64,000 bases of DNA, taken from Astropecten irregularis. Taxonomy: Eukaryota > Echinodermata > Asteroidea > Paxillosida > Astropectinidae. This document shows positions 21,060 to 60,370 of the stretch, one piece after another. The stretch spans positions 9,337,662-9,401,661 of the forward strand of contig OZ020252.1 of NCBI GenBank assembly GCA_963971285.1, read 5' to 3'. Positions within the stretch are counted from its first letter, which is position 1. Each line of letters begins with the position of its first letter. The notes below the pieces were generated by a model, which was not told the origin of the DNA, did no database searches, and was given only the letters and a program-made list of their open reading frames with translations. Position numbers and translations under genes: made by a program.

Positions 21060-22425
21060 ATAGGAATGGTGTCATTCATTGACTGTCCAACATTTCATTC
21101 AACTAACTTCATCCAGTTGATATTTACGCCATATTCAATTTTTAAGTAATTTCCACATTTTTGTCTCTGTTCGTCAAATACGACATGTACAATGGTGTTG
21201 TTATAGATGGGGAACGTCCATTGAATCCTTCTTCATCGAACCCCCAGTTGAAATTTCCAATTTCCTTGGGAAAACACGAAGTCGAGTAATCCATTTTTGC
21301 CTTCAGTGCTTGCATGAACAAACGCCTGGAGTATACCTCCACTAATTGTACCTCCCGGAGTCTACTGTACTTAGGGGGGCTTACAGCAAAGGTGTAATTT
21401 GATGTTCTTGGCTAGGTATATCCCATTGGCCTACATGGCCTAGCTGCTGCCGTAAACTGGCTTAATGTTTTGATCCACCAATTTTAGGCCAGGTTTATTT
21501 ACAGCTGAAAGGGTTGATCGTCAGCAGTTAAATGCCTTATTCACAGCACATCCATCTTGTCACCTTCCTTGTATACCCGTTGGAAAAGATAACACCAATT
21601 CAAAAAAGAAAACTGGTACATGTACATGTATACTATCAGGCTACTTTGAATCCAAGTCTCGGTTTGATCGCACTGCTTCGAATGTAGGATAGATGCGCCC
21701 AATTGAACGATTTGTTGGTTTGAATATCAACTCAACCGACAACCACGTCCATCTGTTTATTCCAAGGATGGATTCCTGACTTGGATCTAGAGCGCAAAAC
21801 CTGATTTTTTTTTATCTCCCCCTCTCCCTGCATTGATCTTCCCTTTCATTTGCGGAGCGAACCATTGTGAGCCGTTCAATACTTCGCCAACACGTCGGCA
21901 GGAAAAGTTAATCCATGCAAGCAGTTATTGCACAATAAAGAAAATATGTAATTTGTCCCATAGCAATCCATAACCATTGCCTTGAGTAGGGCCACTAGCT
22001 CCCTAGACAAAAAAAAAAAATTAATATCTCTGGAGCCATCGCAATGGAGTCGTGGTAAACTTGATACCTTCCTGGGCTTCATCGCTCCTCTTGGATTCCC
22101 AGCTCGCAGTCAAGGACAATGTCTGCCAGTTGCCTAATGGAAATAATTAGCGGCACGCATTTGGTTTTTTCATTCCTGGCGTCAAATTAATGTTTCAAAG
22201 ATTTTTTTTTTTGCATTGTACTGTATGAGGGAAATCGATGTGTTCACAGTTAGGCCAATGAAAGTTGATTGCTAGTTTCTCGTCAGCCATTTATCAGATT
22301 TAGGTAATAACTTCACCCAGAATTCCTCTTTGAGTGATCCCCATGTACCGTTCCCAGGTTGCAGCAATTGCTGCGCGTATGGATAAAATGATCCTTGGGA
22401 TATGGCGGTGTGTGTGTGGTTTCAT
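21060..22425. other. intronic unique block
   Basis: No repeat family recognised. The stretch 21840-22200 is complex and non-repetitive, with homeodomain-type TAATTAGC at about 22145. It is a candidate regulatory or conserved noncoding block by appearance only. Confidence 0.35.
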
Positions 22426-22426
22426 G

Positions 22427-22600
22427 GCTTCTGACTGCCAAACGAACAAAGATAATTGACTATTGGGGTCACCACCAACATAGGAATGGATAGCTCAGTT
22501 GGTAGAGCGTCTGTACGGTATTCAGGAGGTCGCTGGTTCGAATCCAGCTCCAGTCAATCTTTCTTTGTTCACTTTTCACCTAGAAATGTGAATTTGATGA
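22427..22600 (+). mobile_element. tRNA-derived SINE-like repeat (family P)
   Basis: The tRNA-like core is 22484-22555: TAGCTCAGTTGGTAGAGC (D arm, A box), and GCTGG-TTCGAAT-CCAGC (perfect T arm, B box). Upstream GACTGCCAAACGAACAAAGAT and downstream ATCTTTCTTTGTTCAC are roughly inverted relative to each other and are shared with 47040-47285. The anticodon stem pairs poorly, so a working tRNA is unlikely. Confidence 0.78.
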
Positions 22601-31453: not shown

Positions 31454-31806
31454 TAAGGTAGTATCATTCTTTGGTAAGAAACCAAAACAGAAATGTTGTC
31501 AGATTTATGTATAACTTACAGGGTATGAAGATGGTGGTGGTAGAAACATACCATTACTATTTTTCCGCCTGAAACGGTGTATTTATCCAGAAATTATGAC
31601 CGAAAATCTTTTTGATCTTTTAAAAGATCAAAATAAAAAAGAGAAAAGACTTAAGAAATACTGTGGCTGTTTTTAACTGTTTTCTCAAAAAGTGGACCAT
31701 GTATGGGACTGAAATGTTCACAGATGACTGTTACTGTATCTGTCTTGGTATTTTTTCCCATGAATTTGTATTTGTTTGATAAAAACCAAAGTATGATATT
31801 ACCTTT
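31454..31806 (+). mobile_element. family A MITE
   Basis: From TAAGGTAGTATCATTCTTTGG to GTATGATATTACCTTTGAG. All blocks are present. TTAA is degraded on both edges. Confidence 0.9.
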
Positions 31807-32314: not shown

Positions 32315-32462
32315 TTGAGTCGTTTTTCACTGTTTTCTCAAAAAGTGGGCACCGTATGGGGCTGAAATTTTCACATATTACTTTTACTGTTTCTTCCTTG
32401 ATATTTTTGCCCACGAATCTGTATTTCTTTGACAAAAACCGAAGTATGATATAACCTTTAAA
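32315..32462 (+). mobile_element. family A MITE, right fragment
   Basis: TTTTTCACTGTTTTCTC, GTGGGCACCGTATGGGGC and CGAAGTATGATATAACCTTTAA are the right third of family A. The left two thirds are absent. Confidence 0.84.
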
Positions 32463-32983: not shown

Positions 32984-33226
32984 ATATTGTAATACACAGA
33001 GTGGCTTCATCTTGTGCTTCTTCTGTACATCATGTACTGTATATAGTGGAATCTATCTGAAGCATCTTTCAAGCCAGCATTTGGAAAATTATGCCATTAC
33101 ATCTGTATTTAATAAAGGTAGTATCATACTTTGGTAAGAAACAAAAACAGAAATGTTCACAGATTTACATATAACTTACACTCAGGGTATGAAGATGGTG
33201 GTGGTACCCTCACAAAAATGTAAGCT

Positions 33227-33650
33227 TGCGGCAAGCTTGCCGCAAGCTCGTAATTAGATTGCCGCAAGCTTAACAGGCTTGCGGCAAGCTTGTATGAGAC
33301 TGCGCTTTTGCACGCAATCTACTCGCAAGCAAAATACACGCTTGCAAGCTTGCTGCAAGCTTGCGGCAAGCTTGCAGTAAGCGTGCAAGGCTTGTATGGG
33401 AATGACGCAAGCTTGCCCAAATATTCTGGAGCTTGCAGCAAGCTTGCACAAGCTTGCCTCAAGCTTGCACATGAAACAGTTAGCTTGCGCATGAATTTGC
33501 AAGCTTGCGGCAAGCTTGCACATGAAACGGTTAGCTTGCAGGAAGCTTGCGCATAAATGTGCAAGCTTGCGCATGAATTTGCAAGCTTGCGGCAAGCTTG
33601 CACATGAAACGGTTAGCTTGCAGGAAGCTTGCGCATAAATGTGCAATATT
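33227..33650. repeat. left subterminal array (AAGCTTGC units)
   Basis: Dense direct and inverted copies of GCAAGCTTGC, many spaced 11 bp apart. The word GCATGAATTTGCAAGCTTGC occurs at 33489 and again at 33571, so an 82-bp block has been tandemly duplicated inside the array. The open frames that run through this region reflect the repeat periodicity and do not indicate a gene. Confidence 0.85.
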
Positions 33651-33659
33651 GTGATGAGC

Positions 33660-34480
33660 TTGCAAAAGTACTTCCAATATTACATGTGCATAAGCTTATG
33701 AACATATACATGCATGTACTTGTAAAGATATGTTACATATTTTGAGTGGTAATAGACCGTGCCCCAACCAGGCAGAATTATCAAACACCCCTTTTTGTTT
33801 AATTACTTTGATAATGAATTAAGTTTGATTTTGAAAGTTTTCCCAGACAAAAAAAAGCAAGGAGTTAAAATTAAAAAGCAGGATTTGGTTCATTCAAGTT
33901 TAGATATGATCAACCTGGCCACTTAATTAATCAAGAGTTCTGCTAATTTCCTTCCTGTTCAACCTGGCACTTTAAGTTTTTAACACCATCAATTAGCTAG
34001 CCCTGCAAACATGCACAGAAATAATTAGTGCCAATGAAAAGTTAAGTTAATGTATTTTGAAGAGTGTCCCAAATTCTGTTGTCACAGGATTTAGAGAATT
34101 TTTTTTAAGCTCTAGCTACACATAATCTACTGATCTGTATATGGAGGAAGGCAAGTCACTGCAGCATGTCAGGCTGCATAAAGCAAGGGTTCAGTATTAC
34201 AATATATAATTCATGATTTGCCAAACCTTTGGATGTCCTTTTTTTGTGTGTTTTAAATTGCCAAGTGCCTTGTTATTGTATTCAACACTATTTATTATTA
34301 GTTAGGATTATTAGTCATTCATTTATAGGCTTTGTATTATTTTTGAAGATTTTTCCTTTAGGTCTTTTATTGAAAGAGCTTGCTCAGGTCATATGCATAT
34401 TCATTGTTTTAGCCAGCACAGTGTTTTCTTCCCATAGACCTGTGCACAAGAGGATTAGACAGTTAATGTAAACAAACTTA
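33660..34480. other. left core of the iteron element
   Basis: AT-rich, no recognised gene or second repeat. No transposase motif was seen in any frame. The + frame 34229-34471 is hydrophobic but unsupported. Confidence 0.35.
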
Positions 34481-34484
34481 TCTT

Positions 34485-35600
34485 AGGAATGTCACAGGTG
34501 TCAAGTGACCACACTATGACCTCTGGTATGCCACATGTGTACTAGTAGCCATTTTGTCAGCACAGTACACTGTTATAACACAAAGTCAACGTTTTCTTCT
34601 TCCTAATTCACCCTGTTTGAGACCATTTAGAGACCACAATTTGGTAAGCTAACTTTTCTTTATATTTCTTTATTGTTTGATAGTAACTTTGATTATAGTT
34701 TTGGCCATGTTTTGACCATTATTTCAAGTGATTTTAGCCATACTTTTGTTTGGATACTTTGTCTTTGAGTTTTTTATGTGTAAATGTATTGTGGAAATTT
34801 GCATTTGTTATGTACACGAAGACAAGTTGTCTTATTGTTTTTTTCTCTTCTGTATTATTATATTACAGATAGTTATCTGAATCACATGTGCCACTACAGT
34901 CAAGTGACTCCCTGTTTCGTCATTCGGTGGTACATTGGTTGAGAATGTAGGCCTACATCTTTTTGAAAGGACCTTTCTGTGGACGTGGGTGGATGTAACC
35001 ATGGAGGAAGGCACAGAAGTTCGTCGGACCGAAAGTCCTCGACCCACAGTCATCGCAGTCATGGCAGTTCCATAACTTTGATGAGTAGCTTGGCAAGACA
35101 GAAGAAGCTGGAGCTAGCCAAGTAAGAGGCACAGCTGAAGCAAGTAAAGCTAGAGGAGTTGCAGGAGACCACCAAGGCCAGGTTGAAGCAATGAGGATAG
35201 AGAGGTATAAAAAGCTGGAATAACTACAGCTCGAGAAGCAACTGGCTGAGAGTGAGACACGGGCAGTTATGTAGGCAATAGATGCAGAAACGTCAGATGA
35301 CTACACTTCTGTGACATCGCACTCAACAGATATCACCGCCAACAAGAGTGAACACATGCAGATATTTCTCAACTCACAAGATCTAAGAGATTTCTCTGAT
35401 TTTCTGGAGAAAGTCCATGCAGCACTAGCCACCATACCTCCATGTAGCCTGGGAGTGCTCGACTATGCCAGCGAGAACGCAACACCTTATCGAGAAGTTG
35501 CCATTCAATCTTGAGACCAAATGGCTGGACAATATTGACTTCTGGAGGCAGCTACCATGGCCAGGACGCCTACCCCCCATTCACAGAGTTTGTGAGGTTA
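34485..35600 (+). mobile_element. BEL/Pao-like LTR retroelement fossil (gag-like part)
   Basis: A stretch from about 34940 to 35600 encodes a Ser/Arg-rich then Lys/Gln/Glu-rich helical region and a following segment with the DLRDFSDFLEK type of motif seen near the N-terminus of BEL/Pao gag-like proteins. It is broken in several places and is clearly an old, inactive fragment. The 34485-34935 part could be a remnant of the 5' terminal region (it opens TGTCACAGG), but no matching second terminal repeat is present. No protease, reverse transcriptase or integrase part was seen. It lies wholly within the iteron element. Confidence 0.5.
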
Positions 35601-35736
35601 AGGTTTTAAGAATTTAAGAATTTCAGGTTTTTTATATACCTGCTGTGTACAAAAGTTCAGTACAAAAGTACAAACAATTTCAGCGTTTTCCTTGGTGTTT
35701 TTAGATTTTTTGTTCGTGTGGCCACTCATATCCCTG
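35600..35736. mobile_element. family Z MITE, left-truncated
   Basis: GAATTTCAGGTTTTTTATA, CCTGCTGTGTACAAAAG, TTCCTTGGTGTTTTTAGATTT and the right end GGCCACTCATATCCCTG match 62696-62869. It has a hAT-like CAGGG-type terminus (as complement) at the right. It sits inside the iteron element next to the fossil. Confidence 0.6.
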
Positions 35737-35874
35737 TAAATGTGAACAAGTGCTTCAATAAATTTGTTGAAAACTTTATTATAATAAAATTGCCCAGAGT
35801 TTCATTGCAGTTAAAATCTTTATAGAGTATTTTCTCCACCTGTTTACGGCCCTGCAAGTTATGTATGATGTTGA

Positions 35875-36297
35875 GGTAAGCTTGCCTGCATGCTTGCCGT
35901 AGGCTTGTCGCAAGCTTATCGCAGGCTTGTCGCAGGCTTGTCGCAAGCTTGCCTGCATGCTTGCCGCAGGCTTGTCGCAAGCTTGCCGCAGGCTTGCCGC
36001 AAGCTTGCCGCAGGCTTGCCGCAAGCTTGCCGCAGGCTTGTCGCAAGCTTGCCGCAGGCTTGTCGCAGGCTTGTCGCAAGCTTGCCTGCATGCTTGTCGC
36101 AGGCTTGTCGCAAGCTTGTTGCAGGCTTGCCGCAAGCTTGCGGTAAGCTTGCCCTAATTTACATATTTGAAACCGTGCAAGGTTGCGCGCAAGCTTGCGC
36201 GCAAGCTTGCGGCAAGCTTGCAGACAAGGTTGCGGCAAGCTTGCAGACAAGCTTGCGTGCAAGCTTGCACGCAATCTTGCGGCAAGCTTACATATAT
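35875..36297. repeat. right subterminal array (AAGCTTGC units)
   Basis: Regular 11-bp units alternate AAGCTTGCCGC and AGGCTTGTCGC, then give way to GCGCGCAAGCTTGC-rich sequence near the end. About 18 AAGCTT words. Because 33 bp is 11 codons, every frame stays open and yields 11-residue repeats; these frames are artefacts of periodicity. Confidence 0.85.
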
Positions 36298-36404
36298 TTT
36301 CGTAAGGGTAGAAACATACCGTTAAAATTTTTCTACCTGAAATGGTGTATTTATCCAGAAATTAGTCAAACAACGGCCGAAAATCTTTTAGATCTTTTAA
36401 ATGT

Positions 36405-53933: not shown

Positions 53934-54280
53934 TTTAAAGGTAATATCATACTTTATCATACGTTTTTGTCAAAGAAATGCATATTCATGAGCATAAATA
54001 TCAAGACAGATACAGTAAAAATCATCTGTGAAATTCACAGTCCCATACGGTGCCCACGTTTTGAGAAAACAGTGAAAAATGCCCACGGTATTTCTTTTAA
54101 AGATCAGAAATATTTTTGGTCGCTGTTAAGCTAATTTCTGGATAAATACACCATTTCAGGCAGAAACATTTTAATGGTATGTTTCTACCAGCACCATATT
54201 CATACCCTGTAAGTTATACGTAAATCTGTGAAGATTTCTGTTTTGGTTTCCTACTAAAGCATGATCGATACTACATTTGA
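53934..54280 (-). mobile_element. family A MITE
   Basis: From TTAAAGGTAATATCATACTTT to AGCATGATCGATACTACATTTG. A short duplication (ATCATACTTTATCATAC) alters the left end. Confidence 0.87.
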
Positions 54281-58012: not shown

Positions 58013-58396
58013 TTAAAGGTAATATCACACTTTGGTTTTTGTCAAAGAAATACATATTCGTGGGCAAAAATATCAAGGAAGATACAGTGACAGTCATCTG
58101 TGAAAATTTCAGTACCATACATGCACACTGTACGATGCCCACTTTTTGAGAAAACAGTGAAAAACGGCCACAGTATTTCTTAAGTCTTTTCTCTTTTATT
58201 TTTGATCTTTTAAAAGATCAACAAGATTTTTGGTCGTTGTTTTACTAATTTCTGGATAAATATACCATTTCAGGTGGAAACATTGTAACGGTATGTTTCT
58301 ACCACCACCATCTTCATATCCTGTAAGTTATACGTACATGTAAATCTGTGAACATTTCTGTTTTGGCTTCTTACCAAAGTATGATACTACCTTTAA
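58013..58396 (-). mobile_element. family A MITE
   Basis: From TTAAAGGTAATATCACACTTT to GTATGATACTACCTTTAA. Both terminal repeats and all blocks are present. One of the best-preserved copies. Confidence 0.9.
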
Positions 58397-60009: not shown

Positions 60010-60370
60010 TTAAAGGTAGTATCATACTTTGGTAAGAAACAAAACAGAAATGTTCACAGATTTACGTATAACTTACAGGATATGAAGATGGTGCTGGTAG
60101 AAGCATACCGTTAAAATATTTCCGCCTGAAATGGTGTATTTATCCAGAAATTAGTAAAATAATGACCGAAAGTCTTTTTGATCTTTTAAAAGATAAAAAA
60201 TAAAAGAGAAAAGACTTAAGAGATACTGTGGCAGTTTTTCACCGTTTTCTCAAAAAGTGGCCACCCTATGGGACTGAAATGTTCGCAGTTGACTGTTATT
60301 GTATCTGTCTTGATATTTTTGCCCATGAATAGTTTCTTTGATAAAAACCAAAGTATGATATTACCTTTAA
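60010..60370 (+). mobile_element. family A MITE
   Basis: From TTAAAGGTAGTATCATACTTT to GTATGATATTACCTTTAA. Complete and well preserved. Confidence 0.9.

Follow-up and report, generated by a model that had tools for sequence, protein, structure and literature searches.

A transposon family of Astropecten irregularis with dense palindromic arrays inside both ends, very probably of the TRC branch of the CACTA/EnSpm superfamily

The 3102-bp element at positions 33207–36308 (forward strand) of the window, the 64-kb stretch of Astropecten irregularis DNA analysed here, is very probably a non-autonomous transposon of the cut-and-paste type, belonging to the TRC branch within the CACTA/EnSpm superfamily. 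TRC is the animal and fungal branch of CACTA/EnSpm, and the available text of PMC1636069 gives as its hallmarks CCC ends, a 2-bp target duplication, and a Transposase_21 domain. The family is filed as TRC-like EnSpm/CACTA because its CCC ends, 2-bp duplication, and Transposase_21 match these published features. CCC ends are present in all seven near-full copies of subfamily A, to which the window copy belongs, as well as in a miniature copy and in a 12.4 kb copy; in a second group, subfamily B, CCCTTATAG stands at both ends in eight of the nine two-ended copies, and the ninth (L020) has one end reading CACTTATAG. Transposase_21 is encoded by one copy, the 12.4 kb one; the window copy lacks such a gene. 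The plant-type combination of CACTA core ends with a 3-bp duplication was not found, the ends here being CCC and the duplication 2 bp. The initial annotation had suggested that the element might be undescribed; its kind is already known, as CCC ends, a 2-bp duplication, and Transposase_21 are TRC/CACTA features in the available text of PMC1636069 and PMC4298943, and this particular family, whose arrays are very dense, may be a new case within that kind.

The window copy begins with the terminal inverted repeat CCCTCACAAAAAT (33207–33219, forward strand) and ends with its partner CCCTTACGAAAAT (36296–36308, reverse strand), and a TA lies directly outside each end (33205–33206 and 36309–36310), so that the ends and flanks fall where the initial annotation had placed them. 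The element interrupts a copy of a repeat, family A, whose left half occupies 33113–33206 and whose right half occupies 36309–36401, both on the forward strand. The junction made by joining the flanks and dropping one TA is spanned by 19 alignments elsewhere in the window, and in the eight of these that were displayed it carries a single TA and is free of gaps, which bears out the earlier claim of an uninterrupted family A site around one TA. Family A is a short dispersed repeat with many copies in the 64 kb (for example, at 58209–58395, 60011–60190, 31455–31624, and 54095–54265), and a companion segment resembling 32323–32461 lies near several of them. Further family A copies seem, by eye, to be present next to the 12.4 kb element (L017) and within it.

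Just inside each end lies an array of GCAAGCTTGC palindromes, the left at roughly 33222–33665, with 16 occurrences of AAGCTTGC and 17 palindromes with at most one mismatch, and the right at roughly 35878–36289, with 15 and 24, respectively. The 31 occurrences of AAGCTTGC on the forward strand of the window all fall within the two arrays, with none in the rest of the 64 kb. In 100 dinucleotide shuffles of the whole window, AAGCTTGC occurred 1.29 times on average and at most five times, with no more than two in any 500 bp, and in 200 shuffles of each array's own sequence the means were 0.33 (left) and 0.21 (right), with maxima of three and two, against the 16 and 15 observed. When up to two mismatches are allowed, 77 GCAAGCTTGC-like sites are found in the window (25 in the left array, 34 in the right, and 18 elsewhere), and all 18 of those outside the arrays carry two mismatches. 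The right array has a clear 11-bp period, and the left is a mixture of 10–11, 20, and 31 bp spacings. Dense arrays at both ends had thus been described correctly, and the count of about 18 units per side is replaced by exact AAGCTTGC counts of 16 and 15. Subterminal arrays are present at both ends in the window copy, in the 12.4 kb copy, and in L024, a copy of subfamily B. AAGCTTGC was not found in the first eight of 1,413 papers listed for it together with transposons and terminal inverted repeats, a result that covers those eight and does not by itself prove that the motif is absent from print.

The genome searched comprises 475.7 Mb in 168 contigs. The first 194 bp of the element, used as a query, matched at least seven places at 99–100% over its full length, the window included, together with weaker ones, and six other near-full copies (L009–L014), 3075 to 3445 bp long, have both boundaries as in the window copy. 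A search for further copies by their ends, as the initial annotation had proposed, therefore found them, and no copy with different boundaries, the observation it had named as speaking against its reading, appeared among the six. The seven near-full subfamily A copies share 96.4–100% pairwise identity, with gaps not counted. Two of them, L012 and L013, share a contig, where 118 kb separates them, and are identical over 3123 bp; their flanks differ, and their duplications are TA and AT, respectively. Identical copies at different sites indicate that the family moved recently. One further locus, L015, has one end only.

Subfamily B is recognised by its CCCTTATAG... ends, of which 18 right-type ends were found by pattern. 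Its loci number 16, nine of them two-ended and seven with no second end found, and one (L030) is 8314 bp long. Over the window copy's positions 557–1763, where that segment is wholly present, subfamily B is 79–81% identical to the window copy. At nine of its loci (L024:5592, L018, L019, L022, L023, and L025–L028), a second end-like sequence, consisting of CCC, two varying bases, and ACGAAAATTATA, lies inside the right array, as if a newer array had extended an old end outward. The miniature copy (L016:2269–2421) spans 153 bp, with little beyond its two ends, and is flanked by an AG duplication; it lies about 1.8 kb from a frame at C1:12196685–12197713 whose identity to the 12.4 kb copy's transposase is 29%.

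The arrays vary between copies in a manner of their own. When the window copy is compared with five of the others (L014 left out), gaps within the arrays measure 10–12, 22–23, and 31–34 bp, and those in the interior measure 1–5 bp. Substitutions in the same comparison number 1–3 per about 480–490 bp in the left array, 17–23 per about 2155 bp in the interior, and 21–27 per about 390–410 bp in the right array, the last figure being probably inflated by misaligned units. Such changes are those of tandem repeats and would suit two unrelated satellite expansions that flank 2 kb by chance; this account is nevertheless scarcely credible, as termini, boundaries, and 2-bp duplications are common to all seven near-full copies, and uninterrupted target sites exist.

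The 2 bp that flank the element match in 17 of the 18 two-ended copies: in all seven of subfamily A (TA, CA, TT, TA, TA, AT, and GA), in the miniature copy, in the 12.4 kb copy, and in eight of nine in subfamily B (TT, TC, TG, TT, TT, TG, TG, and TT on the locus strand). The sole mismatch, TT/AT, is at L020. As nearly all flanks match and the 2 bp vary, the target duplication is taken to be 2 bp long with no fixed sequence. Fifteen joined flanks were compared against the window and L009–L034, and spanning matches were obtained for three, L024, L012, and L018. The TG insertion of L024 has an uninterrupted site with a single TG at 22324–22553 of the window, and also at L021, L023, and L032. The comparison for L012 is neutral, since at the place of TA in the join its uninterrupted relatives have TT or a similar dinucleotide. 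The joined flank of L018 matched its own locus at 70% and was set aside as empty-site evidence.

Four of the 17 matching duplications are TA, those of the window copy, L011, L012, and the 12.4 kb copy, and taken by themselves they would suit a Tc1/mariner element or another transposon that inserts at TA only. The Tc1/mariner duplication is always TA, and the remaining 13 duplications here read CA, TT, AT, GA, AG, TG, or TC on the strand read. As TA makes up only 4 of the 17, Tc1/mariner is disfavoured; the single-TG empty sites of L024 and the Transposase_21 gene of the 12.4 kb copy weigh in the same direction, and such an origin is extremely unlikely. The TA duplication that the initial annotation had taken as a family trait accordingly belongs to the window copy. 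ISL2EU elements, which duplicate AT or TA and encode their own type of transposase with a YqaJ domain, were set aside on the same data, as the duplications include CA, TT, GA, AG, and TG.

The 12.4 kb copy came to light in a pattern search for ends, in which an inward-facing partner was found 12.4 kb from the left end at L017. It occupies C1:35871069–35883486 (12,418 bp) with TA on either side, and each of its ends carries the 12-bp terminus CCCTCACAAAAA, which is identical to the first 12 bases of the left end of the window copy. AAGCTTGC occurs 45 times on its forward strand, 25 times near the left end and 20 near the right. The minus strand holds a stop-free frame of 864 codons, the first methionine being codon 40, and residues 268–405 of the 864 match Pfam Transposase_21 with 44.5 bits (cut-off 28.6). 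The longer copy with a transposase that the earlier reading had proposed to look for is thus represented by this locus. The layout D, D, C(2)C, H(3-4)H, E, as given in the available text of PMC12730594, is matched by D, D, C(2)C, H(3)H, and E in that order, with residues picked by eye in motifs that start at residues 281 (YTDGV), 369 (CDMPAKC), 387 (YGCPRC), 601 (NIHHLLHL), and 624 (FTFESLNG). Neither of two other frames of the copy, 142 and 152 codons long, gave a Pfam family above its cut-off, and a comparison of the 864-residue protein with the PDB set found no relative at E values up to 1.

A genome search with the 864-residue protein gave 48 matches, from 52 scored of 94 candidates. The 12.4 kb copy itself matched at 100%, followed by three loci at 33% over residues 100–805; two decayed transposase pieces, both with stops, match at 82% over 88 residues (C25) and 68% over 98 residues (C11). 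One complete copy with both arrays and a transposase was present among the 52 scored of 94 candidates. The right end of the 12.4 kb copy recurs at C18:11519497 with 96% identity, and its left end had no relative closer than 75% in the genome search. The window copy is 72% identical to the 12.4 kb copy over the left 480 bp, and the best 40 alignments between the two all lie within the end regions. The 12.4 kb copy is therefore a candidate, and only a candidate, for the mover of the window copy, because the sequence that they share is confined to the ends.

This linkage of arrays and frame at a single complete locus would also be expected if an ISL2EU-type or other short-duplication superfamily supplied the transposase and the Transposase_21 frame were a passenger within the 12.4 kb copy. 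The frame lies between the members of 88 inverted pairs of exact 10-mers whose 2- or 3-bp flanks match; one of these pairs starts with CCC or CAC, namely the copy's own ends, and a nested element with such ends of at least ten exact bases, the minimum that this screen detects, is thus absent. CCC ends with a 2-bp duplication are moreover the TRC signature in print (available text of PMC1636069 and PMC4298943), and the passenger explanation is accordingly highly improbable. One inverted pair, 40 bp long, crosses the left boundary of the 12.4 kb copy, with one member 1.3 kb outside the left end and the other 9.8 kb inside; the two are taken for copies of a dispersed repeat.

The three loci at 33% identity (L039, L040, and L041) each encode a 763-codon Transposase_21 frame and resemble one another at 99.2–99.7% across almost the entire 9.8 kb read. 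As this likeness runs over nearly the whole stretch, their ends must lie outside the 9.8 kb. No GCAAGCTTGC-type array was found around these transposases in the 9.8 kb read per copy; ATAGGCCTA occurs seven times in each of the three. They may represent a second CACTA family with recent activity.

The interior of the window copy is read, from sequence comparison, as passenger DNA that includes the decayed end of an LTR retrotransposon. An LTR-like stretch at 34532–34967 (forward strand), as in LTR retrotransposons elsewhere in the genome, has relatives that recur as pairs 6.6–7.0 kb apart at four places (two on C12, and one each on C17 and C20) at 77–78% identity. The decayed stretch that follows (35020–35595, forward strand) appears by eye only to be gag-like, of BEL/Pao type; parts of it match just inside one LTR-like stretch of each pair, at all four places, and the three frames of 34980–35620 gave no Pfam family. 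Outside the family, this interior DNA is matched most closely by a stretch at C9:4821230–4821795, with 88% identity.

In the mechanism proposed for the family, the Transposase_21 enzyme from copies of the 12.4 kb type would cut at the CCC ends and join them to a target opened with a 2-bp stagger. The palindrome arrays are plausibly binding sites of a transposition protein, by analogy with plant CACTA elements; they would be bound by the transposase or by a second element-coded protein, comparable to TNPA in maize En/Spm, and the bound protein would bring the two ends together, whereby gene-less copies could be mobilised in trans.

The spacing of the arrays differs between the two ends. The best period at the left end is 10.3 bp in the window copy (17 units), 10.3 bp in the 12.4 kb copy (31 units), and 10.45 bp in L024 (15 units), with p values against random placement of 0.0005, 0.0005, and 0.0035, respectively; at the right end it is 11.25 bp (24 units), 12.3 bp (21 units), and 11.45 bp (22 units), with p values of 0.0005, 0.034, and 0.025, where 0.0005 is the floor of 2000 random-placement trials. 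A left period of about 10.3–10.45 bp, one turn of DNA, might place the sites on one helix face and lead to a filament, and a right period of about 11.25–12.3 bp might lead to a different complex, such that only a left end and a right end would pair. This idea is rather unlikely, and the spacing difference is a weak lead and not a result, because arrays grown by duplication keep regular spacing anyway. If true, it would amount to an end-asymmetry rule for CACTA elements, which can be likened to the 12/23 pairing of ends by RAG.

The family does not constitute a new class of element; with it, the TRC-type CACTA transposons gain a recently mobile family whose two ends both carry very dense palindromic arrays. 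The function of subterminal arrays has been studied mostly in plant elements, and the identical copies at two sites, together with the stop-free transposase frame, make this family a possible system in which to study it.

Among known systems, the closest counterparts are the TRC elements SmTRC1 of Schistosoma mansoni and its relatives in Tribolium castaneum and Aedes aegypti, which, in the available text of PMC1636069, have inverted CCC ends and carry Transposase_21, as does the 12.4 kb copy. The ends start with CCCTAGTAG... in Tribolium and with CCCTCACAA... and CCCTTATAG... here. A 2-bp duplication was reported in the same text for 7 of 14 SmTRC1 copies, together with empty sites in repeats, and is likewise 2 bp long here; the Tribolium and Aedes elements measure about 5.2 kb and 9.2 kb, compared with 12.4 kb here. 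The words subterminal and palindrome are absent from the main text of PMC1636069, which describes a tandem-repeat region and a repeat within the terminal inverted repeat. Spongebob (EnSpm-4N1_HM) of Hydra also has CCC ends and a 2-bp duplication, on which its authors assigned it to TRC/CACTA, and it differs in its end sequence, CCCAGCCAAC..., and in that the available text of PMC4298943 describes no array for it.

The likeness of the arrays is to the plant CACTA elements En/Spm, Tam1, and Tgmt*, which have asymmetric subterminal repeats able to form palindromes, according to the available text of PMC2613891. In that account, TNPA of En/Spm binds the subterminal repeats, gene-less copies are moved in trans, and the repeats vary in sequence between families. 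The plant motifs are 12–20 bp long with sequences other than those here, and Tgmt* has CACTA ends and a 3-bp duplication, in contrast to the CCC ends and 2 bp of the present family. The two ends of Tgmt* carry four and 24 repeats, respectively (PMC2613891, available text), compared with the 17 and 24 palindromes (at most one mismatch) of the window copy, which are packed into shorter stretches.
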